Shown in pieces: positions 2,441-49,432 of a stretch of 64,000 bases of DNA. The position numbers and the translations under genes are program-made. The DNA is taken from IMG/VR virus record IMGVR_UViG_3300036881_000016, positions 1 to 64,000 of that record, one strand, 5' to 3'. The notes under the pieces are model-generated. The model saw only the letters and a program-made list of their open reading frames with translations, ran no database searches and was not told where the DNA came from. The stretch is from a virus. The number at the start of each line of letters is the position of its first letter. Positions within the stretch are counted from its first letter, which is position 1.

Positions 2441-3439
2441 TTAAGCTACTGCGCCTATGAAGTAGCTGCCCATACGGGTAGCGACTACCTTCGAGGACCA
2501 GAAAGCTTCGATCTCTATCTTGTTCGTCTTGGTGTCGGGATCGACCCATTCCGAGATAGCCTGTCCGCCTGCAGCGGCACCAGGGGCGTTGCTCCACGTC
2601 AATGTTGCCATTGCGGTCGCTGTCTTAGGCCCAATCCTGGGTGCTGTGTAGCAGAGTAGCGCATCTTTCCCGTAACTAAATGCGAAAACGGGTGTTGCGC
2701 CTCTCCTTGCGGTGTTGGTGACTACCTTCGGCACATAGATGTTGTCGATTTCGAGAACACGCGCAAGCATCTCGACCGTGATACTGTCGGCACTGACATA
2801 CTGGTATTGGTCTTTGATATCGGGGTGCATCTTTAATGCTAAGAATGTCCGAGGACCAATAATCAGTGTGTTCGGATACTTTCCGGTCTTTTCTTGCTGG
2901 TTGGTTGCCGCGTTCAGGATGTCGTCAACAGGCGAGCTGTTGGTCCGGTCAGACCAATAGCAGAACGTAGAGCCTGCGCCTACACCTGTCGGGTTCGACG
3001 TCTGTGCTTCGCCGGTGTATCTGCCGGCAGAGTCCCAAGCGCTTGCGGTCATTGCTGTTGCGATAAGGTCGCTTTCTCTTTTGAGAAGCATCTTGTCGGT
3101 CAACAGTTCCGTTGCGTCTGCGTGTAGATCGAAGATTGTGTCCGCGATCTTGAAATCCTCGTCTGTAAGGATTTTCTTTAGAGCCCACCGCTTGACTGCA
3201 TACGTGCCTTTGGTAAGACCGTACTCAGTGGCTACCGATGGAGTCCCTGCAGCGCGTTCCTGAACCTCATCCCTCATGAAGTCTTCTTGGTTGTACTTCC
3301 AATACTGACCTGCTTTGTCATCGACGGGGAGGTTGGGACATACTAAACTTGCTACAAATGCATCATCGGCTTGGGTGTACTCTTCACTGTAAGTCGTGAG
3401 TGCCCTGCTGATGTGCATCATATCGTAGGTTGGTTCCAT
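2441..3439 (-). CDS. Major capsid protein (HK97 fold)
   Basis: 332 residues, a usual length for an HK97-fold capsid protein. It starts MEPTYDMMHISRALTTYS behind an AGGAGGTGAAGAAAA ribosome-binding site. It has an N-arm, a long helical segment (ATELLTDKMLLKRESDLIATAMT, roughly residues 108-130) typical of the spine helix, an A-domain-like region near 'YPNTLIIGPRTFLALKMHPDI', and a C-terminal beta strand region. It lies between the decoration protein and the connectors, the standard order. Sequence alone does not place it in a subfamily, but it resembles coat proteins of Mu-like/E-type phages. Confidence 0.8.
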   Translation of the reverse strand: MEPTYDMMHISRALTTYSEEYTQADDAFVASLVCPNLPVDDKAGQYWKYNQEDFMRDEVQERAAGTPSVATEYGLTKGTYAVKRWALKKILTDEDFKIADTIFDLHADATELLTDKMLLKRESDLIATAMTASAWDSAGRYTGEAQTSNPTGVGAGSTFCYWSDRTNSSPVDDILNAATNQQEKTGKYPNTLIIGPRTFLALKMHPDIKDQYQYVSADSITVEMLARVLEIDNIYVPKVVTNTARRGATPVFAFSYGKDALLCYTAPRIGPKTATAMATLTWSNAPGAAAGGQAISEWVDPDTKTNKIEIEAFWSSKVVATRMGSYFIGAVA

Positions 3440-3453
3440 TTTTCTTCACCTCC

Positions 3454-4242
3454 TTATGTCGAAGTCACAAAGAATACCCAAATTGCGCCGGTATCGGCGT
3501 TCGTAAAGGTCGTGGTGTGCGCGTAAGTCAAACCGAGAGTTGTTGCCGCCGTCACTGTGCAACCTGCGCCTCCGACTGCAGAAGCGTTTATCGCTGCTAC
3601 TGCACCTGCTTGCCCACAGTTCGCCGACGTGAGCGATAGCACACCGCCGGTTACTGCGCCTGCGGATGAGGTCAGCGTCAGTGAACCGCTCTTGCCTGCT
3701 ACGCTGCATGGTGTGTCGATCGTTGCGTAAACTGCTGTGATCGTACCTGCGCTTGGCACCGGAATGCCTGTGACGATTGCGCCGTCAAGTAGTAATGTAG
3801 CGAGTGGTACTCTCACTGGATGAATCACTGGTGCGCCTGCGGACACGCCGAGGCTTGGACCCTTGTTGTCGAGTAGGACTTCGCCTATGTCGCCTTGTAA
3901 CTGCGAGGTCATTGCTACACCAACGATTGGGTTTGATCCCGTCGCGTGAATGAGCGTTCCGTCAGCTGCAGCTTCCATAGCCCACCCTGGCGTTGCTCCG
4001 CCAACACCAACGAGGTAAAATGACTTGCCGGTTGTCATAACCATGCAAATGTCATCCTGATTTCGCGGGTTTGTCTGTAGGATTCCCATTGACGGGTTAG
4101 CTGTTGCTGCGAGCGCGGCTCGACCATTACTGTCGATCTGAACGGCTGAGTAAATCAGGCCGGTTGCGTTTGTGAGGTCAGATGTGCATATATTCGTTGC
4201 CGCGTGCATCGAATATACGTTGCCTGGTTGCATTGTCGCCAT
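3454..4242 (-). CDS. Capsid decoration/cement protein (DUF2190-like) with added beta domain
   Basis: 262 residues. The first ~130 residues (NVYSMHAATNICTSDLT..., 'SMGILQTNPRNQDD') resemble DUF2190-type capsid cement proteins, which reinforce the capsid lattice and often come just before the capsid gene. The C-terminal ~120 residues, rich in Ala/Gly/Thr/Val (LTLTSSAGAVTGGVLSLTSA), look like an added beta-sandwich displayed on the capsid. The start abuts the scaffold stop as TAATG. The cement assignment is a family-level inference. Confidence 0.6.
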   Translation of the reverse strand: MATMQPGNVYSMHAATNICTSDLTNATGLIYSAVQIDSNGRAALAATANPSMGILQTNPRNQDDICMVMTTGKSFYLVGVGGATPGWAMEAAADGTLIHATGSNPIVGVAMTSQLQGDIGEVLLDNKGPSLGVSAGAPVIHPVRVPLATLLLDGAIVTGIPVPSAGTITAVYATIDTPCSVAGKSGSLTLTSSAGAVTGGVLSLTSANCGQAGAVAAINASAVGGAGCTVTAATTLGLTYAHTTTFTNADTGAIWVFFVTST

Positions 4243-4973
4243 TATGCTCGACCCCTTCGCTGCTCGATCTCGTCTTGATACGCGCCTGTAGAGTTGTAGG
4301 CTTCACGAATCACGGCTGTTTTCTTGACCTTGCCGGCGGACTTCTCCATCGCTTGTTTCACGATGGCATCGACTTTGCCTTGCGGCGAGTCTGAAGTATA
4401 TCCTTTGCCAAGTTCCTCGAAAGCTTTGCTCGAAGTCATGCTCTTCGCCATCAGCTTGCTTGTGCCGGTAAGACCATCTTCCAGACCTTTGTAGACGTCT
4501 GGCGCTTTGGTCGCGACTTCGCGCAGGATGTTGGCGAGGTCCGGAATCGCAAGGTTCTCAAAATCCTTCGCCTTGTTTCCGAAAACTTCGACTTGTCTCT
4601 CTTCTTCGTATTTAGCGGCCTTCGCCATCGCCTCTTTAGCGATCTTCTCATTCTCTGCGCTCTTTTTGAGAAGCATTTCGACGTAAGGCTTCGCTTCCTT
4701 CGGGACGTTTGCCAGATCAGGCAGTTCGCTTCCGCTCTTTGCCATCCCTGTCTTTACTTCCGGAGTCTCTGCAGGTTTTTCGCCGCCAAGCAGTGCAGGC
4801 AGCGAGCCTACGACACCCTTGAGTTCGTCAGCGCCGAGTGCTAGTGAACGCACGCCAAATCGCGTGTATTCTTGCACTTGCTCACTCGTCCCTTCTTTTT
4901 CAAAGAGTTCGGTAAGCTTTGCGTCAACGGAGGGGTCAAGTTCCGGAAGAGTCTCCATGAAATTGTCTTCCAT
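4242..4973 (-). CDS. Capsid scaffolding protein (putative)
   Basis: 243 residues, highly charged and helical (e.g. EMLLKKSAENEKIAKEAMAK), with long predicted coiled coil around residues 95-130 and no enzymatic motif. Located between protease and decoration/capsid genes, the usual place of the scaffold. The scaffold would guide procapsid assembly and be removed by the upstream protease. Assigned by composition and position. Confidence 0.6.
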   Translation of the reverse strand: MEDNFMETLPELDPSVDAKLTELFEKEGTSEQVQEYTRFGVRSLALGADELKGVVGSLPALLGGEKPAETPEVKTGMAKSGSELPDLANVPKEAKPYVEMLLKKSAENEKIAKEAMAKAAKYEEERQVEVFGNKAKDFENLAIPDLANILREVATKAPDVYKGLEDGLTGTSKLMAKSMTSSKAFEELGKGYTSDSPQGKVDAIVKQAMEKSAGKVKKTAVIREAYNSTGAYQDEIEQRRGRA

Positions 4974-4989
4974 GATGTTCTCCTATTTT

Positions 4990-7041
4990 TTAATTCAATG
5001 GGCAGTCTGCGCCTTCACAGGTCGCTACTATCGTGTGCATATTGTTCGCTGCTACTGCAACGAAGCCGACCGTTGCCGGTCGTATCTTTGTCAGTTTCAG
5101 GATCGTATCGACATCTCCGGCGTTCTTCGCCATATATCCAGGCGGAGCTTCGCCGTAGAGGCCTTCTAGTCTCCCGAACATGCTCTGACCCTTGTAGGTT
5201 CCAGCGTCGATTTCCTTTTTCAGGTCGTCTGAAACGCTGTGTGCTACACGCCAACTGCCAACAGGTATGTCACGATCTCCAAGCTTTTCAGGTTGGCTCG
5301 TGATGTAACTCTCAACAACTCGTGCGTCGGCTAGTTTCTGGTGCTCGGTATCCGCCAGCTGTGAATGCTCCATATACCAATGTGCCGCGTCTTGCAGGAC
5401 TTCCGGCGGCGCCCAATGGTTTTGGTCATCCAGCTGGTTCGGCGCATAAACAACCCCTTGCACCACGTTCCTTTTGTCAGGGGCATCAGCCATAAACAGC
5501 CCGAATTGATGCTCGTTATCAGATAACGTAGCGGACTTACTCATATTTGAACTTGTGCTATTTGTGTCGTCGGATGTTCCGGTCGGCCAGCCCAATTTCT
5601 TCGAGTAAGCAGCTAATTGTCCGGCTATCTTTGCTTTATCTGCAGCCGGTATTCCCTGCGCCTGATCGAATCTTGATTTCGCTGCGTGAATGGCGTCAGG
5701 AATAGCGAATAATACACCATCAATGACCGTAGCGATCGGGAATTTCATATCACTTGTTTTTCCGGTCCCTGGATCATATAAGAAGGCTCGCCCATATTTG
5801 CCCGTGTCAATCGTTCCGTCAGGCTTCTTAGCCCACGCTTTGAGTGTTTTGCGTGCCTGTCCTTCGTTCCAGCCAACGTCTTCGTGCGCTAGTGGTAACG
5901 CTGCGGCTTTCGCCATGTCGATTGCTACGAACTGAGGCTCTATTCCGCCGTCCAGAACTGTCTTGATCGCCTTTATCTTACGAACCAGTTCGGCGCCGGC
6001 CAGATTCACAGAGCCAGATTTAGCCATCTTCGTCAGGACTTTCGGATGCGGCAGTACAAAGTCTGCCATAATCGAATCTCCGATTCCCTGACCAAGTGCT
6101 ATCGTGAGGTCGGGGTCGAGGTTATCAAGTTCTTGTGCAAGGTTGTCCCGCCATTCGAGGACTTCGTTAGGTTTAGGACCGCGTGCATTGCCATCTTTAC
6201 CCATCAACATAACCGGAACCTGATGCATGATCGCTACATCTGATCTCTTGAGCCCAAGAGGTGCGAGGTAATTCTTGTCGAACATCGCCCCTGCGACACC
6301 CACCATTGGCTTGCCGCGAACCATTTCAGCGTTGTCAGGCGAACCTTCGACGAATGCAATGAGTGGCTGTCCCTCTTTTAGGATTGGTATTTGAGGTGGC
6401 ACATCGCTCTTGTGCATATCAGTCCAGCCGAGTCGCTTTGAATAACCCGCCAGGACTGAGGCGATTCGAGCTTTAGCAGCGGCAGGAATACTGCTTCCAA
6501 GCAAGCGCCCTTTTGCCGCCCGAATCGCGTTCGGCACCGCAGTAAGTGTCCCGTTTATAACTGTCGCTATTGGGAATTTATATGACGTCAGTAAGGTGGA
6601 CGGGGTGCCGTGAAACAAGAAGCCCTGTCCGTACTTGGCCGTATCAACTGTTCCATCTGGTTTTGTAGCCCATTTCCGAAGTGCGGCTCTTGCGGCACCC
6701 GCATCCCACGTAGTTCCTGCCGAGGCCATTGGCATACCTGCTTTGGCTAACGGCAGATTCACCTCTTTTGGATTGGTGAACATTGGAGAAAGTGGCATAC
6801 GGTTGCTGATCCGCAAGCCACGCTTTTTCATTTCGTTGTAAATGTTCTCGCCTGGCGTGACGAATGCCTGTGCCGGCTGTTCCATTCGGATAGCGTCGCC
6901 GAACCATTCGTTATAGGCTCCCCATGCCTTAGCGAGTTGTGCGTCTGAAAACTTACCGAGGACGGCTGGTGTGACGCTCACTGAAGCAATGAGCGATTGA
7001 TCCAGGGCGCCCTTCTCTATTTCTTGTTCTGAAATCGACAT
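4990..7041 (-). CDS. XkdF-like prohead protease fused to a UDG-like domain and two repeat domains
   Basis: 683 residues, much longer than usual prohead proteases (about 200-350). Domain order: an N-terminal region; repeat domain 1 (about 110-205, KWATKPDGTVDTAKYGQ); a segment at about 222-325 with the layout of family-4/5 uracil-DNA glycosylases (IAFVEGSPDN, then GKPMVGVAGAMFD, then ...LKRSDVAIMHQVPV..., then NLDPDLTIALGQ); repeat domain 2 (about 390-490, KAWAKKPDGTIDTGKYGR); and a C-terminal XkdF-like serine protease region (about 505-620, VVQGVVYAPNQLDDQ, with HSQLADTEHQK and VPVGSW-type elements). It sits between portal and scaffold, the normal protease position. The glycosylase 'GEAPG' motif is altered to EGSPD, so activity is doubtful. 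Confidence 0.7.
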   Translation of the reverse strand: MSISEQEIEKGALDQSLIASVSVTPAVLGKFSDAQLAKAWGAYNEWFGDAIRMEQPAQAFVTPGENIYNEMKKRGLRISNRMPLSPMFTNPKEVNLPLAKAGMPMASAGTTWDAGAARAALRKWATKPDGTVDTAKYGQGFLFHGTPSTLLTSYKFPIATVINGTLTAVPNAIRAAKGRLLGSSIPAAAKARIASVLAGYSKRLGWTDMHKSDVPPQIPILKEGQPLIAFVEGSPDNAEMVRGKPMVGVAGAMFDKNYLAPLGLKRSDVAIMHQVPVMLMGKDGNARGPKPNEVLEWRDNLAQELDNLDPDLTIALGQGIGDSIMADFVLPHPKVLTKMAKSGSVNLAGAELVRKIKAIKTVLDGGIEPQFVAIDMAKAAALPLAHEDVGWNEGQARKTLKAWAKKPDGTIDTGKYGRAFLYDPGTGKTSDMKFPIATVIDGVLFAIPDAIHAAKSRFDQAQGIPAADKAKIAGQLAAYSKKLGWPTGTSDDTNSTSSNMSKSATLSDNEHQFGLFMADAPDKRNVVQGVVYAPNQLDDQNHWAPPEVLQDAAHWYMEHSQLADTEHQKLADARVVESYITSQPEKLGDRDIPVGSWRVAHSVSDDLKKEIDAGTYKGQSMFGRLEGLYGEAPPGYMAKNAGDVDTILKLTKIRPATVGFVAVAANNMHTIVATCEGADCPLN

Positions 7042-7044
7042 ATC

Positions 7045-8622
7045 TTATGCCCTCCTCGTCTTAGTTCGTGCAGGAATCTTCTTCTTAGCCGGCGGTTTCT
7101 TAGCTGGTGCTGGTTGCGTCGTCGGTTTAGCAAGTGCCGGAGGCGGTGCTGCTGCGCGTGCCCCGGGTTCTGCCGCCGTTACGGTCCCACCTGCGAGGTC
7201 AGCCGAAGTCTCGTTAGTTGTTGGGCCTTCGACCCACGCTGCCTGCTGTGGTGTGGCTGCTGCTGCTGCTGCCATCGCTTCTTTGATGTGGTCTGCAATC
7301 TCGTTGTTCGCAGTTGTGTCCACGTGTGGCAGTCCCGCCTCGTCGAGTATTGCATTCAAGAGGTCGTCGTTCGGGAAGATCGCTGCGCTCGCCTTAACGA
7401 GGTTCGCCATCAACTTGCCGAGGTCCGCAACTTCAGTCTTAGCGACGTTGCCGTGAACCAGTTTCGGGATGCCTGAAACTGCGCCGAAGTCGTTGTATTC
7501 GGCTAACTGCGTCATCGCCTGCTTGTTTATTGTTTCGCAGATAGCATCGCAGATTGATTCGATAAACATAACAAAGAAACTCGATTTATTGCTCGAGAGT
7601 GCGTAGGAACCTGGCCCTCCGGACGGGAGTAACATAAAGTCGGCCTGCAGTCCTCGAGCGATCTCTGCCTGATATCTCTGGATAGGCTGCAACGTTGGCA
7701 ACCCTGTTCCACGAGTGGTTAGTTGCTGGCCGCCGGTGAGCCCTATTGAATACATCGGCACGCTGGTTGCTGGCCACACATCTGAAGGGATAACAAAGTT
7801 AGCGTCTTCATTTCTGCGAACGTTGTCAGCAATGTCCTGATACTTCTTGAGTACTTTCGTATTCTTTTTAAGCCAGTTCTCGGACGGGATTCGCACTTCT
7901 GGCAGTCCAGCGACGTTTCGCTCAATGCCGATCAGTTCAATGAGTTCCAGTTTGTGTTTCGCGTACCAAGCCATATAGACCCCGCGCCACCAGCTCTCAC
8001 CTTCGGGGTTGTTCTTTGTGCTGTTGTGGCGGAAGTGGATGCACTTCTCTATCGGGATCGTGATGTATTCAGATGCAGGGATGAGTACCTGTTGCGTGAA
8101 CCCTGTGAGTTCCTGCGTCTTGAGATCAAAGTCCCAACGATAAACAGTTTCTTGTGGTCTGAATCCCCACTTCTTCCAGCCTATGTGGCCGTCAGGGCGC
8201 CGCATCCAAACCATCTCAAACAAGCCGAAGCCCATATCAGGATAGGTTAGGATCTCATTCAACTTCTCCTGCCAGGACATATCGAGTGAATTGAAAATAC
8301 AATCAGTAGCAAAGTCTGCGAAGGCCTTGTCGCCGCTAAGCGTTCCGGCAGGTTGTATGAAAAACTCGACCTGGTGAATGGCCATCTTCGTAGCGTTGCC
8401 GACAGCCGCAACCGTGGCGTCGGTCCCCATCATAGTCTTATAGGTGCGAAGCCGTTGCTTACGGTTCTGTAACTTAGGAAGCCACTCTTCTAAGATGAAT
8501 CCGTACGCTTCTCTCAGTCCTGGCTTACCGATCTCAGCCATCGTAGCAGCAGGCCGTCCGGCTCCTGGTGCTCTCCGTTTCACAATCTTAGCCGGTTTCG
8601 CCTTAGTTTTAGTCGCTGCCAT
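7045..8622 (-). CDS. Portal protein (DUF935/Mu gp29-like)
   Basis: 525 residues, the expected size for a portal. The segment GFGLFEMVWMRRPDGHIGWK followed by ...GFRPQETVYRW and a 'WRGVYMAWYAKHKLELIEL' helix matches the portal family of Mu gp29-like phages, where the pattern is 'YG...E..W....G......RP...F'. An Ala/Pro/Lys-rich tail (ends KKKIPARTKTRRA) is probably disordered. The portal forms the dodecameric DNA channel. It lies between terL and protease as in most tailed viruses. Confidence 0.85.
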   Translation of the reverse strand: MAATKTKAKPAKIVKRRAPGAGRPAATMAEIGKPGLREAYGFILEEWLPKLQNRKQRLRTYKTMMGTDATVAAVGNATKMAIHQVEFFIQPAGTLSGDKAFADFATDCIFNSLDMSWQEKLNEILTYPDMGFGLFEMVWMRRPDGHIGWKKWGFRPQETVYRWDFDLKTQELTGFTQQVLIPASEYITIPIEKCIHFRHNSTKNNPEGESWWRGVYMAWYAKHKLELIELIGIERNVAGLPEVRIPSENWLKKNTKVLKKYQDIADNVRRNEDANFVIPSDVWPATSVPMYSIGLTGGQQLTTRGTGLPTLQPIQRYQAEIARGLQADFMLLPSGGPGSYALSSNKSSFFVMFIESICDAICETINKQAMTQLAEYNDFGAVSGIPKLVHGNVAKTEVADLGKLMANLVKASAAIFPNDDLLNAILDEAGLPHVDTTANNEIADHIKEAMAAAAAATPQQAAWVEGPTTNETSADLAGGTVTAAEPGARAAAPPPALAKPTTQPAPAKKPPAKKKIPARTKTRRA

Positions 8623-8628
8623 TGTTAA

Positions 8629-11184
8629 TCACAACTGGTCCATGTATTCGTATCCGCGTCCGTAGCTGACTCCCGGCATAATGCTTTTGTAAAGCCGACG
8701 CGTCAGGGAAAAAGTGTAGACGCCATATCTCATAGCGTCCATAAGATCATCGAAGCCTGCTTTCTTGTTCGGCAGTTCCATAACTCTACCTGCCTGATCC
8801 TTCGCTCGTTGGTAGCCGCCGATTTCAGAAAGGAAGTGGTCGCATTGAGTATGAATCTTGATACTATATTGCCTAACGGCGCCAATGCCGTCGAGGACAT
8901 TCTTCTGTGCTGGCTGCGCGTTTAATCCGCCAATCTGCATCTCTTTGATGCTGGCCGGATTCGCCGAGTCACAATAAATAGGGATGTTTTCGGCTATGCC
9001 ATTCGCGTTCAATTTGGACTTGATTGAATCAATGAAGTCTCGGTTAAGCTCCTCGCGCTGATACACCTCGTCAATGACGTAGAGGTCGTGGTTCTCATCG
9101 TCAATGCCCATCACGCAGAACGCCGAAGGGTGAGAATACCCGAAGTCAGCACCGCCGATGATCGTGTCAAACTTTGTCTCTTTCGGCTCGAAGCCCCACG
9201 GTTCCCAATTCTCATAGACCATCGCGCCGAGTTCACCCCAAAGTCCGAGCGTGTAAACCTTGAATCGGTTCTTGTCCTTGATGTTCTCAAGGGATTTCTT
9301 GTAAGCCTCATCAATAAACTCGTTGTCTTTATAGGTGTAGTGGCGAACGCTTGTGTCTTCATCTTCCAATGGTTGATCCTGATTGTCAAAGAACAGTTCG
9401 TGCAACCAATGGTTCCGGTCGATAGGATTGAATGTTAAGATAAGTTGTCGGGATTGTCCTTCGGGAAGTTCACGGCCACGAAGGCGCATCCGGATCATCT
9501 CAAATTCTTCAAGTGAAAGCTCTGTCGGCTCCTCAATCCACATCCCTGAGATATCGGTAAGGGACTTGATTGAGGCTGCAACCTCACCGCCTTGAGAATC
9601 CACGATCGCCATTCCTTGTATGACTGATCCGTTCTCGAACGTGATCTTCATAGTGGTGTTGTTGGGATGATACGGGATCAGATTCTCATTCAAAATCTGA
9701 ATGAGCATACGATATGCCGTAACGCGCAACCGTGGCGACCAGGCTCGCATTACGATCGTCATTGAATTGGGATACTTGAGCGACTTCATTATGACTTTCT
9801 GCGCTGCTGCGACTGAATTATGCGTTACTGTAAAGTCTTCAAGGAGATACCTACCGTCGCCGTCGAGTTGGAAGCCAACCCATTCGCCTTCCCCGTCTGG
9901 TTCAACTTTTATGGACGTTGCGCCTTCGGTTGACCCAAACTGGTGCGATGTTCTGGTTGCCTGCTTTCTGGCGATCTTAGTCGGAATCATGTTTACAGCG
10001 CCCGTAATGTGCAGACGCCAATAAAGTCCCTCGAAACCGATAGATTTGATCGTCTTCTTGACTTTGCGACACGAACAACGCAGCCCTAGTGAATGACAGA
10101 TGTACCGCACTTGTTTTGCGAGTTGTTCGTCTTTCTGAATAAAATCAAAGCCCCCGTGACTTATTGACCCGTCTGTGTCTATAAGTCCAGCCAGCAACGC
10201 CAAGCGCGTCTTTCGACTACCGTAAAGAAAATCGTCGGGAATATGCTTGTTATTAAGAAGATTGTAATGCTGGAATGCGTGGAGCAGCACCGTAGCGACG
10301 CCACCTTTATTTCCATTTGTTAGGTGGTAGCTTCTTGCGGAGGTTCCTTTTTTACGAATGATTGTGGTTTTTAATAGCCACTCTGAAGCGAAGTTAAACA
10401 AAAATTCAACTATCTCGTCATCGGCGGTGGTAATCGTGGTGCTGTTTGAATGGCCATCCCCCAACCATAGTCCTAAGAAATACGGGTCAACCTTTGGCTC
10501 AGTATTTTTGGGAAAATCGACTCCGACTGAAAATCCGTAGAAGTGGCGTTTCCACTTCTTCCCTTTTTCGAGGTATTCCGGAAGTGGGATATCAACAATG
10601 TCCGGCTCATCCGGATATACGCCTCTTGGGCGTTTGTAGTTGCCTGAGTCGTAAAGTTTGCCTTTGTCCTTCGTAGAGAAATCTGCTTTTTTAAGTGTGA
10701 GCGTATGTTGGTCGTTCACCACATAATCCATTCCGCGCGTCTGGTGAACCTTGTAAAGTGGGCCATACCCGCTGTGCGTTTCGACGACGTTTCTCGGGTT
10801 TGAATCAGGTCCCATAACTTGATCGCCGATTTTGATGTCCTCAACTTTTACAAGTTCTCCGTTGAACTTAACGACCAGTGTGCCTTTCTTCAAAGTCTTG
10901 CCAGCACCTGCGCCGCCTTCGGCCACTAGATAGCGTCGCTTCTCTAAGAAAAATGGAAGAAAACTCTCTTGCGGGAATGCTCGAGGCCTGACTTCACGGC
11001 CAATGATCTCAGGACCGTATTCAGGGGGTTCTGCGCCTAACTTCAGAGCCTCGATATCGTGTGATTCAGGCTGAAAGGGAATGTCATCATCGCCAAGGTC
11101 AAGGTCGATGTGGTCGATATCGCCATCTACACGTTCGTTTCGCTTCCAGGGCGATTTAATTCGCCGACCTTTTGCTGATGCCAT
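8629..11184 (-). CDS. terL: Terminase large subunit with intein
   Basis: 851 residues in total, about 491 after removal of a 360-residue intein. The ATPase Walker A is split: GGAGAGK precedes the intein and S follows it, giving GGAGAGKS in the mature protein. A Walker B-like ISGMWIEEPTE follows. The nuclease domain shows Asp motifs in GGADFGYSHPSAFC, IYCDSANPASIKEM and GFDDLMDAMRYGVY, as in Terminase_6C nucleases. TerL powers DNA packaging through the portal and cuts the concatemer. The gene lies between the small upstream genes and portal. Confidence 0.9.
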   Translation of the reverse strand: MASAKGRRIKSPWKRNERVDGDIDHIDLDLGDDDIPFQPESHDIEALKLGAEPPEYGPEIIGREVRPRAFPQESFLPFFLEKRRYLVAEGGAGAGKTLKKGTLVVKFNGELVKVEDIKIGDQVMGPDSNPRNVVETHSGYGPLYKVHQTRGMDYVVNDQHTLTLKKADFSTKDKGKLYDSGNYKRPRGVYPDEPDIVDIPLPEYLEKGKKWKRHFYGFSVGVDFPKNTEPKVDPYFLGLWLGDGHSNSTTITTADDEIVEFLFNFASEWLLKTTIIRKKGTSARSYHLTNGNKGGVATVLLHAFQHYNLLNNKHIPDDFLYGSRKTRLALLAGLIDTDGSISHGGFDFIQKDEQLAKQVRYICHSLGLRCSCRKVKKTIKSIGFEGLYWRLHITGAVNMIPTKIARKQATRTSHQFGSTEGATSIKVEPDGEGEWVGFQLDGDGRYLLEDFTVTHNSVAAAQKVIMKSLKYPNSMTIVMRAWSPRLRVTAYRMLIQILNENLIPYHPNNTTMKITFENGSVIQGMAIVDSQGGEVAASIKSLTDISGMWIEEPTELSLEEFEMIRMRLRGRELPEGQSRQLILTFNPIDRNHWLHELFFDNQDQPLEDEDTSVRHYTYKDNEFIDEAYKKSLENIKDKNRFKVYTLGLWGELGAMVYENWEPWGFEPKETKFDTIIGGADFGYSHPSAFCVMGIDDENHDLYVIDEVYQREELNRDFIDSIKSKLNANGIAENIPIYCDSANPASIKEMQIGGLNAQPAQKNVLDGIGAVRQYSIKIHTQCDHFLSEIGGYQRAKDQAGRVMELPNKKAGFDDLMDAMRYGVYTFSLTRRLYKSIMPGVSYGRGYEYMDQL
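9817..10896 (-). mobile_element. Intein with LAGLIDADG homing endonuclease in terL Walker A
   Basis: About 360 residues (TerL 97-456). Block A is TLKKGTLVVKFNGELVKVED; block B is MDYVVNDQHTLTL; two LAGLIDADG motifs are PYFLGLWLGDG and LLAGLIDTDG; block F is GEWVGFQLDGDGRYLLED; the end is FTVTHN with Ser at +1. Insertion inside the P-loop is a common intein site in terminases. The first intein residue reads Thr (codon ACT) rather than Cys, Ser or Ala, which is atypical and could lower splicing. Boundaries were chosen so that the extein reads GAGAGKS. Confidence 0.85.
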
Positions 11185-16205: not shown

Positions 16206-16652
16206 TTATTTATTATTCTTATGCGGACAATGTCCATATTGCCCTTTGGCTATGTTGCAGTTATAGCAAAGGACTTGATAGCCTAGAGGGAAGTTTTCTT
16301 TTTTCAAGCGGCGATATAGGTTTGTGCCGTGATCGTGCTTGTTGTTTGTTGGTCGAATGTGGTCTATCGTGAGAAAAGCGCGTTCTGATTCGCCACAACA
16401 AGCGCATTTAATCTGACCGTTTGAATAATGTGAGAATACCTCGTCTCTTAACTGTATAAGATATTCCCTAACTTTGAGTCGTGATTTGGCATTTACTTTC
16501 TCACGATAAATGCGGTCATTAGCTCGGCGGAATCTTCGGCGCTCATTAATTCTTGCTTGGTTCTTCTTTTGCCAAGCTTTTGTGAGTGTTAATAAGTGTT
16601 CTTTGTGATCGAGACGGTATTGTCTCTGGTATTCTGAACGATCTTTAAGCAT
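16206..16652 (-). CDS. HNH endonuclease (inserted against the operon)
   Basis: 148 residues. The N-terminus is a basic helix (SEYQRQYRLDHKEHLLTLTK) seen in phage HNH homing-type proteins. The nuclease core reads CACCGESERAFLTIDHIRP and then GYQVLCYNCNIAKGQYGH, i.e. paired C-x2-C motifs with the DH and N-x-H-like elements. It is the only gene in the 15-42 kb region on the minus strand besides the regulator at 25347, which suggests insertion as a mobile intron-less homing gene. Confidence 0.8.
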   Translation of the reverse strand: MLKDRSEYQRQYRLDHKEHLLTLTKAWQKKNQARINERRRFRRANDRIYREKVNAKSRLKVREYLIQLRDEVFSHYSNGQIKCACCGESERAFLTIDHIRPTNNKHDHGTNLYRRLKKENFPLGYQVLCYNCNIAKGQYGHCPHKNNK

Positions 16653-17593: not shown

Positions 17594-18382
17594 ATGGCTA
17601 GGAGTATGCAAACAGCTACAATAAGCTTCGGGCTCGTAAATGTGCCTGTCAAGCTGTATAAGGCGGTCGAATCTCCGACCAGCATGCACAAGCATCATGC
17701 CATTGATGGCGGTCGAATCCGTCAAAAGCAATGGTGCGAGGTATGCAAAAAGGAAGTAACAAAAGACGAGGTAGTGAAAGGAACCGAAGTAAACGGTCAA
17801 GTCGTGACCGTGACCGAGGACGAGCTAAAAATGCTGCGTCCTGAAAAGTCGAGCGCAATAAAAATCGTGGAGTTTGTGCCACGATTTGAGATTGATTCGC
17901 TTTACTTTGGAGCGCATTACTATCTTGGAGTTGACAAAAAGCAGCCGACTGAGCCCTTCTTTTTGCTTAGAAATGCGCTGCGAGAGTGCGGCAAAATCGC
18001 AATCGGAACATACACCAAGCGCGAAAAAGAATACGCTTGCGCGATTGAGCCTTACAAGTCAGGTTTGCTTTTGACTGACCTAAATTACCTTGAAGAGATA
18101 AGAGACATTGAAGAGATAGCGGTCAAAGAGCCGGAAGTCAACGATGAGGACTTGAAGCTCGCGCAAATGCTGATTAAGCAGCGTTCAGTTGACGAGTTAG
18201 ATTTGAGCAAGTTCAAGGATTCGTTTAAAGCTGATCTTCAAGCATTAATCGCAACTAAAGCTGCTGGCGAGACTTTCAGCGTTGAATCCGAGCATTTAGA
18301 AGCTCCTAAGTCTACACTCAAAGAAGCACTTGAGGCGAGCCTGACTACTATAAACTGGCAAGCTGAGAAATCGGAGGCCTAA
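17594..18382 (+). CDS. ku: Ku-like DNA end-binding protein
   Basis: 262 residues, the size of prokaryotic Ku. The start MARSMQTATISFGLVNVPVK, then LYKAVES, matches the canonical Ku N-terminus. The core continues with 'RIRQKQWCEVCKKEVTKDEV', VVKGTEVNGQVVTVTEDELK and the 'IKIVEFVPRFEIDSLYFGAH' to YYLGVDKK stretch. RNALRECGKIAIGTYTKREK also fits. Ku homodimers ring DNA ends and recruit NHEJ ligase. No LigD is visible here, so it may act with host NHEJ, for example to circularise incoming linear DNA, as proposed for Ku of some mycobacteriophages. Leader repeat 2 lies directly upstream. Confidence 0.9.
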   Translation: MARSMQTATISFGLVNVPVKLYKAVESPTSMHKHHAIDGGRIRQKQWCEVCKKEVTKDEVVKGTEVNGQVVTVTEDELKMLRPEKSSAIKIVEFVPRFEIDSLYFGAHYYLGVDKKQPTEPFFLLRNALRECGKIAIGTYTKREKEYACAIEPYKSGLLLTDLNYLEEIRDIEEIAVKEPEVNDEDLKLAQMLIKQRSVDELDLSKFKDSFKADLQALIATKAAGETFSVESEHLEAPKSTLKEALEASLTTINWQAEKSEA

Positions 18383-18661: not shown

Positions 18662-19156
18662 ATGAAAACAAACGAAGAGATATTCAAGGAGATCAAAGCC
18701 ACTTTAAAGGGGCTTGATGATCTAGCCGCGTCGCTGACAATCGGCTCTATCAATGGGGGCCGTTTGTCAAACAAGCTTTGGGACGCAATTATGGTAAATG
18801 AAATTTACCGAGAGAAAGCTGAAGCAAAGGGACTTCTAAAATTAGAAGTCAAGTTACCAAACGGTTTAGGCGTTTGTCACGATTGCGATAATCCGCTTTG
18901 TGTGAATCCGAACCATTTGTTTCTCGGAACGCCTAAAGAAAATCACCATGACTCAGCTATTAAACGTCGGAGAGCCGACACGAACGCGGCTTTAAACGGT
19001 CGTGCGCGATTAACTTGGAGTGATGTTGAGAAGATTCGCGATCTGTATGAAACTGGAAAATATACTCAAAAGCAATTAGGTAATTGTTTCGGAGTTCCAC
19101 AAACGCAGATAAGTAGAATCGTGCGAGGCGCGAGTTGGAGGGAATATTATGACTAA
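18662..19156 (+). CDS. HNH endonuclease (HNH_3 type) with C-terminal HTH
   Basis: 164 residues. The core reads VCHDCDNPLCVNPNHLFLGT, the HNH_3 signature. A C-terminal helix-turn-helix (KYTQKQLGNCFGVPQTQISR) gives sequence recognition. The N-terminus lacks the usual 'W.W.G....GYG' part, so it may be a composite. Its stop overlaps the next start. A homing-type mobile gene. Confidence 0.8.
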   Translation: MKTNEEIFKEIKATLKGLDDLAASLTIGSINGGRLSNKLWDAIMVNEIYREKAEAKGLLKLEVKLPNGLGVCHDCDNPLCVNPNHLFLGTPKENHHDSAIKRRRADTNAALNGRARLTWSDVEKIRDLYETGKYTQKQLGNCFGVPQTQISRIVRGASWREYYD

Positions 19157-20546: not shown

Positions 20547-21031
20547 ATGTATATCAAGGAAGTTATTATCGACAGCAAGCTCTCAGATCGTTTTTGGACG
20601 AAAGTTCATAAAACTGATTGGTGTTGGGAGTGGACAGGAATTACAGATACACGCGGATACGGACGAATCAGGGTTCAGAGAAATAAAAAACGCGAGGAAT
20701 ATTTAGCACATCGTGTTGCATATTCGCTAACTTATGGTGCAATACCTGCTGGAAAATATGTCTGTCACGATTGCGACAACCCCCGGTGCGTTAATCCACG
20801 TCATCTATTCATAACAACGGCTCAGGGTAACTCGATTGACCGGAACCGGAAAGGTCGCAATGTTGATAACTCCGGCGAGAATCACGGAAGAGCTAAACTT
20901 AATTGGCGACTTGTACTGAGATTCGCAAAGCACGTGAGATGGGATTAACGCAGCGTGCGCTATCGCGCATCTACGGCGTGACTCGCACTGCGACGCGATA
21001 TGCAATAATGGAAAAAACTTGGAGGGAATGA
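20547..21031 (+). pseudogene. HNH_3 endonuclease, frameshifted
   Basis: The first frame (20547-20948, 133 aa) holds W-x-W-x-G (DWCWEWTGITDTRGYGRIRV) and VCHDCDNPRCVNPRHLFITT, a complete HNH_3 core, but ends early. In another frame from about 20915 the sequence TEIRKAREMGLTQRALSRIY continues into GVTRTATRYAIMEKTWRE, the normal C-terminal HTH of the family. A 1-base loss near 20900-20915 explains this. The HTH frame stop overlaps the next gene, as in the intact family. Confidence 0.7.
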
Positions 21032-33197: not shown

Positions 33198-33680
33198 ATG
33201 GCCAAGCTTACAAAGTTCCAAAGAGAAGAGATACAACGGAAGTATCGAGAGCATGAAAAGAATCAGCCGGCGCTTGGACGCGAGTATGGCGTTTCCCAGA
33301 AGACAATCAGTCGGATAGTTAATGGCCAGGTGCTTAAAGGTCTCCGGCGCAAGCTCGATGCTGTTGATAAGTGGATACTCCGATGTATCAAACAGAGCGA
33401 AGGGCTGTCAATGATGGATGTCTACCGCTGTGTTAATCTTGAAGCAGAGGGAAATGTGCTTGGCATAGTCTGTAATGAGCAGTTCATACGGTATCGGATC
33501 AACTCACTGGAAGCAATGGGCCATATCTACACCGTTCGGGTGAAGGGTAAACCCGCTGTTAGAAGGGTATATCTACAGGAACAAAAGAAGTTTGAAGCGT
33601 TGACGGCGGTGATTCATGATGGGAGCGATCCAACCATTAGAGCCAAGACTTTTCTCACAGATCGAAGTAAGCGGCCATAG
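33198..33680 (+). CDS. HTH/winged-helix DNA-binding protein
   Basis: 160 residues. N-terminal HTH (NQPALGREYGVSQKTISRIV) resembles the C-terminal HTH of the HNH proteins. A second wHTH follows (LDAVDKWILRCIKQSEGLSM, then IRYRINSLEAMGHIYTVRVK). Likely a viral transcription factor. Its 3' end overlaps the HNH at 33616. Confidence 0.65.
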   Translation: MAKLTKFQREEIQRKYREHEKNQPALGREYGVSQKTISRIVNGQVLKGLRRKLDAVDKWILRCIKQSEGLSMMDVYRCVNLEAEGNVLGIVCNEQFIRYRINSLEAMGHIYTVRVKGKPAVRRVYLQEQKKFEALTAVIHDGSDPTIRAKTFLTDRSKRP

Positions 33681-34104
33681 GGGGTCTTGCTGGCTTTGGA
33701 ACGGCGTTAAGGATGACCATGGCTACGGAAAAATGAGCCGGAATGGCCACGAGGAACGGGTGCATCGAATTATGTATAAGCTAGTTAACGGTGAGATTCC
33801 GAACGGCTTGTTTGTTTTGCATCGCTGCGATACGCCGGCTTGCGTGAATCCGGATCATCTATTTGTGGGAACACAAAAAGATAACATGCAGGATTGCATC
33901 AAGAAGGGCCGCTTCAATGCCAAAGGCCCGACCGCCGAACAAAGCGGAACCGCAAAGCTAACCCAAAGAGAAGTGAACCACATCCGGTTCTTCTATGATA
34001 TGGGCGCAACTCAAACAGAAATAGCGGAAGAATACGAAGTGTCAATCTCTACGATTTCTTTAATAGTAAGAGAACGCACTTGGAAGCACTCGTTGGTAGA
34101 GTGA
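33616..34104 (+). CDS. HNH_3 endonuclease with C-terminal HTH
   Basis: 162 residues. SCWLWNGVKDDHGYGKMSRN, then VLHRCDTPACVNPDHLFVGT, and C-terminal GATQTEIAEEYEVSISTISL HTH. All family parts intact. GGCGGTGATTC before ATG. Overlaps the upstream regulator by 65 bp. Confidence 0.85.
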   Translation: MMGAIQPLEPRLFSQIEVSGHRGSCWLWNGVKDDHGYGKMSRNGHEERVHRIMYKLVNGEIPNGLFVLHRCDTPACVNPDHLFVGTQKDNMQDCIKKGRFNAKGPTAEQSGTAKLTQREVNHIRFFYDMGATQTEIAEEYEVSISTISLIVRERTWKHSLVE

Positions 34105-34270: not shown

Positions 34271-34813
34271 ATGCCAGCGCATTCGTCTGCGGAATATCTG
34301 CAAAAGTGGCGTGCTGATAACTGTCAGCATGTCAAAGACTACGCCTTGAAGTGGCGTTTAACGAACAAAGAGTATGTAAAATCATATATGCAGAAGTATC
34401 GAGCAGAGAACAAGCAGAAAATCGCTGAGCAAGAAAAACAATACCGCCAGCAAAACCATGCACGTTACCAGCAATGGTGGCGAGAATGGGACAAGGCGAA
34501 CCCAGAAAAAGTGAGAGTGAAACACCATAAGCGCCGAGCGCGATTATTAGGGAACGGCGGTGCATTTACTGCCGATGAATTGAGTGAGAGATTTGAAGCA
34601 CAGGAAGGAAGGTGTTACTATTGCGGGCGGTTACTTTACGCCTCGTTCGATCGAGACATCCACGTAGATCATAAAACACCCCTCGCAAGAGGTGGTTCGA
34701 ACGAGATAAGCAACATCGCACTTGCATGCTCAGCCTGCAATTTCTCTAAAGGCGCTAAAACCGAAGAAGAGTATTTGAAATATGAAGAATCAAGAAGAAT
34801 TTGTTCCATCTGA
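34271..34813 (+). CDS. HNH endonuclease
   Basis: 180 residues. Long basic helical N-terminus (EYLQKWRADNCQHVKDYALK) and HNH core RCYYCGRLLYASFDRDIHVD, then HKTPLARGGSNEISNIALAC and SACNFSKGAK. Paralog of the 32140 frame. It begins after a short upstream reading frame of nine codons in a gap, so it may have inserted there. Confidence 0.85.
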   Translation: MPAHSSAEYLQKWRADNCQHVKDYALKWRLTNKEYVKSYMQKYRAENKQKIAEQEKQYRQQNHARYQQWWREWDKANPEKVRVKHHKRRARLLGNGGAFTADELSERFEAQEGRCYYCGRLLYASFDRDIHVDHKTPLARGGSNEISNIALACSACNFSKGAKTEEEYLKYEESRRICSI

Positions 34814-36080: not shown

Positions 36081-37322
36081 ATGGGAGTCAGTTTAGACTA
36101 TAGTGTCTCAGTAACGGCAGGAAGCATCGGGGAAGTCCCGCAATACATTAAGGACTGGCACATAAATACCGTCGAGTTGGTTTCAACCGGCGGGGCAGGT
36201 AACAATTACGCGAGTCAGCTCGCGTATCTCAAGGGTCTTGGAGTCAAGCCGGTGCTCGATATCGAGATGGATATCTGGGCAGGCGGTCAGATTCAATCGC
36301 CTATTGGCAACTTTACGAGCTTCCTGCAATCCTGCAAGGCGGCAGGCTGGCCGACACTCAGCTCAGAAGGTGGCAGAGCCGGTGATCCGAGCTTCATTAA
36401 GGGGCTAGGACTCGGCTACATCAACTACAACTGCGACCAGTGTGGCTTGTGGCAGAACATCTATTCCGATGTTGGAACCGTGATGAATCTCTGGGAGTGT
36501 TACTATCCTTCCGAGGTTGGTTACATCACGCAGGGCGCAAACGCTACTAAAGGCAAAGCGAACGGCGTTCTAGCCGGTGCTTGGCGTGACGCAGCGGAAC
36601 ATTCAAAATGCTACTTCTCGAAAGACGCGCCGAATTACGCAAATGCGCCGAACAAGAAATTCAAAGGCGACAACGATATCCTTCAGAACAGCATCAACGG
36701 AGCGCAACCTAGCTACGAGTCAATAATTGATTCGCTCATAGCATTAGGATGCTCAGTAACGCGGTTCGACGTTTGGGGTGGAACAGCGTCAAGCAGAGCG
36801 CAGAATCAGGCCTGCGGCTTCGATTCAATAGTCGCTAACTTGCAGAAGAACCACCCACCTAACGGCATTGGACCTGCGCCACCCCCTCCGGTAACAAAGA
36901 AAATGTTTGCATCGGTTCCAGTGAGCTGTTCTATGGTTCCTGGTCGCATCGACGAGTTTGTTAAAGGGACCGATAGCACACTGTGGCACAACTATCCAGC
37001 GATAGGCGCGGCTAACTGGCAGTCGCTAGGCGGCGTTCTTACGTCGGCACCTGCTTGCATCACGCGGGCCGGCAAGATCATAGACGTCGTTGCACGCGGT
37101 TCAAACGGTGGCTGTTACCTGAAGGAATGGAACGGCACTCAATGGCTCGACTGGAAAGACCTTGGCGGCGTTGTAGCTGCAAATACTCCATTAGGGATCA
37201 TTGCAGTGAACGACAACAGCCTAAACGTCTATGTTATCGGGAGCGACGGCAATGTATGGGTCAAGTCAATGGTGAATGCTGTGTGGAGTAATTGGAAGAG
37301 GGACGCAACCGTAATGGGGTGA
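36081..37322 (+). CDS. TIM-barrel-like glycosidase domain plus PLL-type lectin domain
   Basis: 413 residues. Residues 1-255 (IKDWHINTVELVSTGGAGNN, then VKPVLDIEMDIWAGGQIQSP, YINYNCDQCGLWQ...) look like a TIM-barrel domain, like the insert in the 50985 tail protein and the 48263 protein. Residues 270-413 carry two or three W-rich lectin blades (DSTLWHNYPAIGAANWQSLG, then GVLTSAPACITRAGK...). No signal peptide. Likely host-surface or exopolysaccharide binding/cleavage; it lies outside the tail operon. Substrate unknown. Confidence 0.6.
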   Translation: MGVSLDYSVSVTAGSIGEVPQYIKDWHINTVELVSTGGAGNNYASQLAYLKGLGVKPVLDIEMDIWAGGQIQSPIGNFTSFLQSCKAAGWPTLSSEGGRAGDPSFIKGLGLGYINYNCDQCGLWQNIYSDVGTVMNLWECYYPSEVGYITQGANATKGKANGVLAGAWRDAAEHSKCYFSKDAPNYANAPNKKFKGDNDILQNSINGAQPSYESIIDSLIALGCSVTRFDVWGGTASSRAQNQACGFDSIVANLQKNHPPNGIGPAPPPPVTKKMFASVPVSCSMVPGRIDEFVKGTDSTLWHNYPAIGAANWQSLGGVLTSAPACITRAGKIIDVVARGSNGGCYLKEWNGTQWLDWKDLGGVVAANTPLGIIAVNDNSLNVYVIGSDGNVWVKSMVNAVWSNWKRDATVMG

Positions 37323-38729: not shown

Positions 38730-38993
38730 ATGGCGATGGATGATGTTAGGAATTTGCTCAGAGAATCGGGCCGTGGCATGACCTTAGAAGAGCTGGCCCA
38801 CGCTACTGGCTTAGCTAAAGGAACGGTCCAGCGCAACGTCGCCGATCTCTGGAAAAAACATGAAATTTCGCGGATGTATAAGTTCAATGAGCTTAACATC
38901 CGCTACGTTTATTACTTCTACGGCTCGAACTTAGTGGGCGACAATCAGATGAGGGGTGCATGGCCAAAACAGAAGGTTGCGATAAAAAGGTAG
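38730..38993 (+). CDS. Winged-helix regulator
   Basis: 87 residues. [20 protein letters not shown] then [20 protein letters not shown] and a basic end. HTH of the wHTH type. Overlaps the next HNH gene. Confidence 0.6.
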
Positions 38994-39418
38994 ATACGCC
39001 TTGCGAGAACTTTAAGGGTTACATCATGCCCAACGGTTATGGCTACCAGCATGATCCGGTGCGATACGAACGTGGCGAGAAAAACTTGGTTTACGCGCAC
39101 CGCTTGGCATACGAACGGCACTTCGGACCGATACCAAAAGGGGTGTGTGTTTGCCACCGTTGCGATAACCGCGCTTGTATCCGTCCAGATCATCTTTTTC
39201 TAGGAACGCATAAAGACAACACTCAGGATGCGGTCAAAAAAGGCCGCATGCCACGAGGCGAGCAAAGCGTCCTTGCGAAACTCACGATGGCGCAAATTGG
39301 CGAGATTCGGAAGCGCTACAAGAAATGGGTTGTCGGGACGCCCCAACTCGCTAAGGAGTATAGGGTAAGCAAAGCCACAATATTACGTATTATCCATAAC
39401 GAGCGATATAGGGGCTGA
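38960..39418 (+). CDS. HNH_3 endonuclease with C-terminal HTH
   Basis: 152 residues. The N-terminal strand region ([20 protein letters not shown]), [20 protein letters not shown] and GT motif, then [23 protein letters not shown]. Intact family member. Precedes the nuclease frame at 39420. Confidence 0.85.
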
Positions 39419-40106: not shown

Positions 40107-40417
40107 GTCTCAAGGATGAACTAAATACAGAATGTTTCGCATTTGAAAAACTAGCGGATGAACTTGAATCAGTCCTGGCGGATTTGCGTAATGGGATTGA
40201 TCCGACGCGCACACGCATACGGTTAAAAATCGTCTGCGCTGAACTACATCTGCAACGAGAGCGCGTTGACCGGATGGTGAAAGACGCGGAGGAGGGAGCA
40301 CCCGCGCCGGAACCAAAGATATCAACATTTAGCAGTGTGTTCCACGGGCCATTTCACGGGGAGGCCCAAGTCAATTTTTCAAAGCTTGTTTATGATTCTG
40401 GTAAGGAGGATAGATGA
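40103..40417 (+). CDS. Hypothetical coiled-coil protein (104 aa)
   Basis: MSLKDELNTECFAFEKLADE then LESVLADLRNGIDPTRTRIR, helical, followed by a shorter beta-like tail (VFHGPFHGEAQVNFSKLVYD). Its start and stop overlap neighbours (ATGA). Unknown. Confidence 0.55.
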   Translation: MSLKDELNTECFAFEKLADELESVLADLRNGIDPTRTRIRLKIVCAELHLQRERVDRMVKDAEEGAPAPEPKISTFSSVFHGPFHGEAQVNFSKLVYDSGKEDR

Positions 40418-41625
40418 TAACTAAAACTAAGAAAGGTCACGGCCTGGGGTGGAAGCCCCAATTAAAAGATCACCGTGATTATAGATACGAAGATCACGTG
40501 AGACTAATGATGGCTGAAGCGTTACAGCCTACAGACCTAACTAACTTGGTCAGCACAGTCAAGAATCAAGGCCAATTAGGTGCGTGCGTTGCTCACGGAA
40601 CCACGTCAGGATTTGAAGCGTGTCAGATGAAGGCAAAGTTAGCACCCGTGTTAGGCTGCAGGCTGCTTGTCTATCGTGATGCGAGGATCATAGGCGGTGA
40701 CTTCCCTGGCGACAATGGGTGTAATATCAGAGATGGTATCCACGCGACTGTTCAGGACGGCGTGGCACCTGAAACTGATTGGGCTTACAATATAAGCCAG
40801 TTTGATGACACTCCACCAGCGAAAGCGGTCGCGGATGCGGTGAAATCTGAGACCGTGAGCTACTATTTGCTTGATGGCTCGAGCACCACGCAGATGATTG
40901 CGAACATAGACAACTGCCTCTGTGTGACAGGCCTTCCGGTGGTTTACGGAATGCCAGTCTACCAACAATACGAAGACGTAGGCAGCGACGGAATCATTGA
41001 GATGCCGTCAGGGGCGTCAATCGGTGGTCACTGCAATGCACTCTGCGGCGTCACTGGATTCACCGCCAGCGACTATTACATCACCCTAAATTCGTGGGGG
41101 ACAGGTTGGGGCAAAGGATACGGCAAGTTCAGTGGGGGATTCGGCTTGATCCCTAGACCGTATATCCAGAACTATGCAAGTGACAGTTGGGTAATTGCTA
41201 CGGAGAGTCAGATCAATCCGACTCCTCCTCCGGTGACGCACGTAACTGCAAATTCATCGCCAATGCTTATGGCAAGTGGTGATCGGTTTGTAACGGGTTC
41301 AGACAAAGCAGTGTGGCAACAGCACGCAGCTGCATGGAAGTCCCTCGGCGGGGTAGTTCTCGGTGCGCCAGCATCATGCACAGACGGCACCAATGTTGAC
41401 GTCTTTGCAGTTGGAAGCAACGGGGCTATCTGGTGGAAGCGCAATGCGAATGCGTGGGTATCCCTTGGTGGCACAGCTCTTGTAGGCTCAGTCCCAAGCG
41501 CAGCATACGTCAACGGCGTGTTGACTGTTGATGTTGAAGGCACAAACCACACGATATACGAAAAGAAGTATGTCAGCGGTGTGTGGACAACCGCGTGGGC
41601 CGCAGTAGCATTGAACTTGAACTAA
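40414..41625 (+). CDS. Papain-like (C1A) cysteine protease fused to a PLL-type lectin
   Basis: 403 residues. STVKNQGQLGACVAHGTTSG holds the oxyanion Gln and catalytic Cys, GGHCNALCGVTGF the catalytic His, and YITLNSWGTGWGKGYGKFSG the Asn-Ser-Trp-Gly motif, so all papain-family residues are present. The C-terminal ~125 residues are lectin-like W/G blades (KAVWQQHAAAWKSLGGVVLG). No signal peptide or propeptide was recognised. The lectin would hold it on the cell surface, the protease could cut surface protein or a peptide wall. Its cell-entry/lysis role is inferred. Confidence 0.8.
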   Translation: MITKTKKGHGLGWKPQLKDHRDYRYEDHVRLMMAEALQPTDLTNLVSTVKNQGQLGACVAHGTTSGFEACQMKAKLAPVLGCRLLVYRDARIIGGDFPGDNGCNIRDGIHATVQDGVAPETDWAYNISQFDDTPPAKAVADAVKSETVSYYLLDGSSTTQMIANIDNCLCVTGLPVVYGMPVYQQYEDVGSDGIIEMPSGASIGGHCNALCGVTGFTASDYYITLNSWGTGWGKGYGKFSGGFGLIPRPYIQNYASDSWVIATESQINPTPPPVTHVTANSSPMLMASGDRFVTGSDKAVWQQHAAAWKSLGGVVLGAPASCTDGTNVDVFAVGSNGAIWWKRNANAWVSLGGTALVGSVPSAAYVNGVLTVDVEGTNHTIYEKKYVSGVWTTAWAAVALNLN

Positions 41626-48955: not shown

Positions 48956-49432
48956 TTAGTCTAGATTTCCCCCCAAGTCCACCCACGCTGCACTCCAAGC
49001 GGTGCCGCTCCAAATTCTCTGCCAGAGTTCGCCCGACATTCCCTGCCCATACACCCAAATCGAGGTCTTAGCACCGCTCGCGCCGGAATTGTAACAATAC
49101 GCAGTCAGTCCTGAACTGAACTGGCCGCCAAGGCTACCGTTCCATGCGCTCCAGATGCCGGCTGCATACGATCTGTACCAGCACGCTTGGTCACTTCCCA
49201 CAACGAAAATCCAATGAGAAGTGCCATCTGTGCAAGCAGCAGGATTGAACCCCTTCGCTTCAAGAACGGTTATACGCTCTTCGTGATCTGCCTGAGTTTC
49301 AAGGACGCCACTGTCCCCATTAACCTGTACCTGGTCGTTCAGCGTGCTATTAATATCACTAATACTTGCACTGTGGTTGATGAGGTTCTGAGCCACTGCA
49401 TTTTTATAATCCGCGTCGCTTGCGTTTAACAT
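48956..49432 (-). CDS. Short lectin-type fibre protein
   Basis: 158 residues. N-terminal coiled coil (NHSASISDINSTLNDQVQVN, VLETQADHEERITVLEA) for trimerisation, then two W-rich blades (AGIWSAWNGSLGGQFSSGLT; TAWSAAWVDLGGNLD). Probably a tail-tip fibre. Confidence 0.6.
   Translation of the reverse strand: MLNASDADYKNAVAQNLINHSASISDINSTLNDQVQVNGDSGVLETQADHEERITVLEAKGFNPAACTDGTSHWIFVVGSDQACWYRSYAAGIWSAWNGSLGGQFSSGLTAYCYNSGASGAKTSIWVYGQGMSGELWQRIWSGTAWSAAWVDLGGNLD

Follow-up and report, generated by a model that had tools for sequence, protein, structure and literature searches.

Why would a virus code for a domain like a uracil-DNA glycosylase (UDG) within the protease that matures its capsid? 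The question is raised by 64,000 nucleotides of viral DNA (positions 1 to 64,000 of IMG/VR record IMGVR_UViG_3300036881_000016; the whole stretch analyzed is called the window here), in which a single gene for a 683-amino-acid (aa) protein joins the two. The gene lies among head genes, in the order portal, polyprotein, and then scaffold-like, decoration-like, and major capsid protein (MCP) genes (Pfam, PHROGs).

4990..7041, minus strand, R1–UDG-like–R2–XkdF polyprotein, 683 aa (ORF and translation, Pfam, local HMM architecture of near relatives)
7045..8622, minus strand, portal protein, directly upstream of the polyprotein gene (PF06074, 5e-27; phrog_113, 2e-63)
4242..4973, minus strand, scaffold-like protein, directly downstream of the polyprotein gene (same position and relatives in the family)
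2441..3439, minus strand, MCP (phrog_1005, 4e-65)
6421..6708, minus strand, R1 repeat domain, residues 112 to 207, pattern W..G.AR..L..WA....G..D..KYG..FL.., also in many other head-gene proteins
5944..6405, minus strand, UDG-like domain, residues ~213 to 366 (Pfam/NCBIfam, AF2, Foldseek)
5590..5880, minus strand, R2, a second copy of the R1 repeat, residues 388 to 484, missing in L008, L017, and L019
5059..5511, minus strand, XkdF-type prohead protease domain, residues 511 to 661 (PF14550, alignment, His/Ser survey)

The C-terminal part was identified as a prohead protease with Pfam (PF14550, residues 521 to 624, E = 3e-16), and the candidate catalytic His and Ser were conserved in the 48 XkdF domains surveyed (6 read by eye, as a strict pattern missed one residue). 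The R repeat (~95 aa) had no Pfam match; it is an add-on in many phage proteins (L021 to L044), apparently including prohead proteases of other types. At 8629 to 11184 (minus strand), an intein-like insert (Hom_end_hint, 1.6e-12; LAGLIDADG_3, 2e-8) splits the terminase large subunit within its P-loop (GAGKT...HNS).

An initial annotation, made from the letters and ORF translations, read a family-4/5 UDG-like order of segments in positions 6040 to 6385, which code for residues ~219 to 334 and include IAFVEGSPDN, GKPMVGVAGAMFD, GLKRSDVAI, and NLDPDLTIALGQ. Profile searches of the region, which it had suggested, found UDG matches, and the similarity is far above chance (PF03167, TIGR00758, phmmer). 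The Pfam UDG family PF03167 matched residues 230 to 340 at 31 to 33 bits (E = 2.8e-7 for the whole protein, 6.1e-8 for the isolated piece), above its curated cut-off of 24.3 bits; NCBIfam UDG_fam4 (TIGR00758) matched at 1.6e-10 but under that model's own strict cut-off. The best PDB sequence match (phmmer) was the Thermotoga maritima UDG (1l9g, 1vk2/TM0511; 5e-5 to 6e-5), and a profile search against PDB gave a UDG match at 2e-18. The UDG part of the proposed interval held and its end did not, as the domain runs past the motif-2 "PHP" to about residue 366 with a C-terminal helix and is better placed at 5944 to 6405.

Structure prediction, the other suggested check, returned a UDG fold nearest to UdgX and family-4 UDGs. 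The AF2 model of the window domain (pLDDT 91.4, pTM 0.87) was built from an alignment of 47 head-family sequences with zero canonical UDGs among them. Its top Foldseek matches in PDB were UdgX, TM0511, and the family-4 UDGs of S. tokodaii and T. thermophilus (E = 1e-8 to 1e-7), followed by a phage family-A polymerase and TDG; the named top BFVD matches were mostly phage UDGs or DNA polymerases. A PHROGs search gave no matching family for the UDG-like domain. Chance resemblance, mis-assembly, or an annotation artifact without a UDG fold could draw on the low fold-alignment identity to solved UDGs (about 16 to 22%) and on the low confidence of an initial five-sequence AF2 model (pLDDT 37), but independent profile libraries match, the deeper alignment gave a confident model whose top folds are UDG only, and dozens of contigs, drawn from various metagenomes, carry the same fusion. 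Near relatives recovered from other metagenomes also have the same domain, which rules out an assembly chimera. We give this explanation practically no chance, the profile and fold results having refuted it: residues ~213 to 366 are a UDG superfamily domain by fold, and profiles, AF2/Foldseek, and PF14550 together bear out a UDG-like fold within a capsid maturation protease.

The initial annotation had described an insertion in the protease. The UDG domain does lie inside it, not as an isolated case but as a module of a recurrent multidomain head-protease family, in which a UDG-like domain is N-terminal to XkdF in one ORF in 49 distinct viral proteins. Loci came from a degenerate nucleotide pattern encoding VGx[AS]Gxx[FL]xxxYLxPxG (about 18 further loci) and from a profile-guided scan (57 loci, overlapping in part with the former). 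Window-group patterns recovered the same few close viruses only, a relaxed pattern keyed on GxPD gave the known group and chance ORFs, and two scans of bacterial and archaeal genomes with window-group patterns gave zero matches. Other members of the subfamily reached 1e-20 to 1e-22 against PF03167, which puts UDG membership beyond reasonable doubt. Portal genes upstream and scaffold, decoration, and MCP genes downstream were found at nearly all loci with enough flank.

Three layouts recurred: R-UDG-XkdF (the type of the window, where R occurs twice), UDG-XkdF, and a long layout of 1,000 to 1,800 aa running NT, methyltransferase, ATP-dependent DNA ligase, UDG, PE, and XkdF. The ligase and methyltransferase partners scored above the Pfam cut-off, and KxNG/KxDG was present in 18 of 23 ligase domains. 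The names of the other two are tentative: PE (LigD 3'-phosphoesterase-like) matched weakly in several members (E = 0.005 to 0.06) and has HxDxR in 27 of 27, and NT (nucleotidyltransferase-like) is called by motif alone (GS...DxD, 19 of 23). L017 and L019 share 58% identity with the window in the UDG domain. L024/L061, with a protease domain ~54% identical, have one R repeat and no UDG domain, so the UDG module is optional. The protease domain of L097 is in a neighboring ORF, and the UDG domain of L135 and L145 is divided over two overlapping frames.

Among cultured phages, UDG-core tblastn matches fell in 24 records, about half of them without annotation; the annotated matches were UDGs, DNA polymerases, and hypothetical proteins, with no head protease. 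XkdF/PHROG 3017 head maturation proteases have the same protease domain, but those families have no UDG module. The "DNA methyltransferase" annotation of phrog_1530 hints that a fusion of protease and DNA enzyme is perhaps already in phage databases. A search of the open PMC literature (subscription papers and preprints were outside its scope) found no paper joining these features. The UDG fold and the XkdF protease are each of a known kind; what appears to be new is their combination, along with the layout of the polyprotein.

In a phylogenetic tree, all 47 head domains fell on one side of a branch (support, 100/98) from a thinly sampled outgroup of 17 rows (canonical and polymerase-fused UDGs), with a head set gathered by similarity to itself, a bootstrap not fully settled, and long branches (notably pol_Exig) that make outgroup placement unsure. 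The head UDG domains thus apparently form a virus-specific, monophyletic UDG subfamily; within it, the domain of the window is divergent and sits on a long branch. The N-terminal UDG-like module of phage family-A DNA polymerases (Exiguobacterium phage vB_EalM-132, SPO1 type; L152, L154) is alike, and some of these also lack the motif-A Glu and the cysteines, but they are fused to DNA polymerase and lie outside the head clade (on long branches, with exact placement unsure). In L152 (6923 to 9298) and L154 (6851 to 9169), the N-terminal UDG-like domain, probably with a DNA polymerase behind it, has lost the Glu of motif A (GMAPG and GQNPG).

The initial annotation took the source for an archaeal tailed virus, which found no support: PCNA was not found in the 14 virus records of the family searched, and the window virus has a Ku gene (17594 to 18382, plus strand; PF02735, 2.9e-40). 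Ku is also present in the near relatives L005 and L006 and was found in 0 of 28 other records searched. A link between Ku and ligase was rejected, as Ku, among the records searched, occurs only in the window virus and these two relatives and so is not tied to ligase-bearing polyproteins. Elsewhere in the window, similar "W..LGG ... V.G.D/N" repeat stretches were seen by eye at 36081 to 37322, 40414 to 41625, 46230 to 48248, and 48956 to 49432, perhaps a common binding propeller; one of these proteins has a fused papain-like protease (PF00112, 9e-9). HNH-like homing endonuclease ORFs, also seen by eye, are unusually numerous and spread through the early genes (16206 to 16652, 18662 to 19156, 20547 to 20948, 33616 to 34104, 34271 to 34813, and 38960 to 39418).

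What the domain could still do was judged from its active-site residues.

6334..6348, minus strand, motif A position (GEAPG in family 4), E-G-S-P-D, residues 232 to 236, with Gly233 in place of the catalytic Glu (alignment, column tally)
6214..6225, minus strand, H-Q-V-P, residues 273 to 276, with His where the uracil-binding Asn (T-N-x-V) sits (column tally)
6043..6051, minus strand, motif B P-H-P, residues 331 to 333, invariant, n = 47 (alignment, column tally)

Uracil is held in UdgX and family 4 by the T-N Asn and the motif-B His (N91 and H178 in UdgX), while the motif-A Glu serves to activate water or the nucleophile (PMC10359453). Glu occurs in 0 of 47 sequences in that column (A38 G5 S3 L1), in agreement with the changed motif 1 of the initial annotation. 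The Asn column reads N30 H12 Y3 F1 G1 of 47; the window group has Gly, Met/Ile, and His at the positions of Glu, Phe, and Asn, respectively. Motif-B His and His-Pro are kept in 47/47, a full conservation that suggests a pocket altered rather than abandoned. There was no conserved set of cysteine columns in the head-family UDG domains (at most 2 Cys per domain), hence no Fe-S cluster like that of family 4. With the motif-A Glu gone, excision has probably been lost, as the initial annotation had allowed, and the pocket is probably retained in altered form.

Set beside family-4 UDG and UdgX (TIGR00758; TIGR03914; PDB 1l9g, 4zbx, 6ajo), the head domains have the same fold, motif order, and motif-B His and, in the core group, the T-N Asn, but they lack the motif-A Glu, the Fe-S cysteines, and the UdgX R-loop (KRRIH), are fused to a capsid protease, and have a shorter stretch from the "ALG" strand to motif B. 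The window domain keeps the His-Pro of a family-4 enzyme and lacks its motif A GE(A/G)PG, 4 Cys ([4Fe-4S]), and T-N-x-V Asn. Where UdgX has GEQPG and the KRRIH R-loop with its cross-linking His, the window has a motif A without Glu or Gln and the loop GKDGNARGP.

The regions between domains carry candidate sites of prohead cleavage.

6739..6750, minus strand, predicted site LAK|A (K100), upstream of R1 (motif statistics)
6406..6417, minus strand, predicted site MHK|S (K211), immediately N-terminal to the UDG domain (motif statistics)
6016..6027, minus strand, motif match MAK|S (K341) within the UDG C-terminal part, in a window-group insertion; may or may not be cut
5905..5916, minus strand, predicted site MAK|A (K378), immediately C-terminal to the UDG domain (motif statistics)
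5533..5544, minus strand, predicted site MSK|S (K502), immediately N-terminal to the protease domain (motif statistics)

The motif [ILMV]-x-K-[SA] was first seen by eye in linkers, and an unbiased scan came later; it is enriched about 5-fold in linkers and neighboring scaffolds. Across all 20 residues at P1, Lys alone stood out against expectations from shuffling (linkers, 142 versus 28.9; scaffolds, 334 versus 73.6; related proteins taken as independent), with I/V/M at P3 and A/S at P1'. On the same count, there was a weak excess in domain interiors (95 versus 59) and no clear excess in portal, MCP, and terminase together (97 versus 81). Because the sequences are related, the z-scores make the result look more certain than it is, and the per-residue contrasts, and those per protein, are the better evidence: scaffolds exceeded their own expectation in 55/55, a site occurred ahead of the protease domain in 44/49 proteins, and the UDG domain was closely followed by a site in 33/49 and preceded by one in 25/49, with ~10 expected for random stretches. 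In the window, the scaffold has 5 strict [ILMV]xK[SA] matches (1.1 expected; 0.001 of shuffles), and the protease has 6 (2.0 expected; 0.018).

In T4, gp21 cleaves both the scaffold and the internal proteins after L/I-X-E, and the internal proteins, once cut, leave the head along with the DNA (PMC9026906). By analogy, the [ILMV]-x-K-[SA] motifs are likely to be prohead cleavage sites. The predicted parallel with T4 gp21 and internal head proteins takes in a short P3-x-P1 motif, a scaffold that is cut up, and cargo freed in the head (PMC9026906); it differs in a predicted P1 of Lys rather than Glu and in cargo within the protease gene rather than in separate proteins with targeting sequences.

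We give somewhat better than even chances to a self-cleaving head polyprotein that frees a non-excising DNA- or base-binding UDG-like piece in the procapsid. The polyprotein would coassemble with scaffold in the procapsid, and its protease would cut itself and the scaffold at the predicted [ILMV]-x-K|[AS] sites in linkers. This would set free within the head the UDG-like piece (about residues 212 to 378 in the window) along with other pieces, which in many relatives would include the ATP-dependent DNA ligase, the methyltransferase, and the LigD-phosphoesterase-like domain. As the water-activating acid is lost and the fold and motif-B His are kept, the UDG-like piece would most likely bind or flip DNA bases without excising them, as the DNA-binding or damage-sensing part of a head-internal DNA-processing kit. 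We infer that the "packaged repair or DNA-binding piece" of the initial annotation is the best-supported functional reading. Against the proposal, in the window group, the pocket Asn and Phe are replaced (His, Met/Ile), which makes DNA or base binding less certain than in the core group, and one motif match sits inside the UDG domain of the window.

The strongest competing explanation is purely structural: an exapted module whose UDG fold would serve assembly through scaffold, portal, or shell contacts without touching DNA. Loss of the catalytic acid in 47/47, the missing Asn and Phe of the window group, and the location in the protease/scaffold unit all fit it, as does the absence of the domain from L024/L061 (dispensable, then, for capsid formation in general). 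We nonetheless consider it rather unlikely, since the invariant motif-B His and PHP and the Asn in 30 of 47 point to a retained pocket, the recurrent company of DNA ligase and other DNA-processing domains fits a DNA role, and the predicted sites on either side would release the domain during maturation.

A less probable alternative is an active glycosylase of altered chemistry, in which another residue (the Asp of the window-group GSPD, or a conserved Glu/Asp 239) would replace the motif-A Glu and uracil or another base would be excised. Family-5 UDGs are active despite having no acid at that position, the motif-B His and the Asn are conserved in the core group, and invariant E and R residues are present outside the canonical motifs. 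The position-236 Asp, however, occurs in only 7/47; in UdgX, the E52A change leaves H109 nucleophilic activity no longer detectable (PMC10359453). No dUTPase was found in the 17 records of these viruses searched, and a uracil-DNA genome was rejected on the same search.

Returning to the freed, non-excising UDG-like piece, it may belong to something wider, to which we give less than even chances: tailed phages of this lineage may carry a DNA-repair and DNA-reading kit (ligase, phosphoesterase-like domain, methyltransferase, and altered UDG) as one protease polyprotein, cut in the procapsid and delivered with the genome, that would keep the phage DNA intact or mend it, either within the head or as it enters the cell. 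The predicted Lys-specific motif of the prohead protease is directly testable, and the family, in which nature has removed the catalytic acid from a whole set of UDG-fold proteins, offers an opportunity to learn what the fold does once excision is lost. Capsid maturation and the processing of DNA bases and ends, usually treated apart, are brought together here. Should the pieces be released inside the head, these viruses would pack repair tools by genetic fusion to the protease, unlike the targeting peptides of the T4 style.
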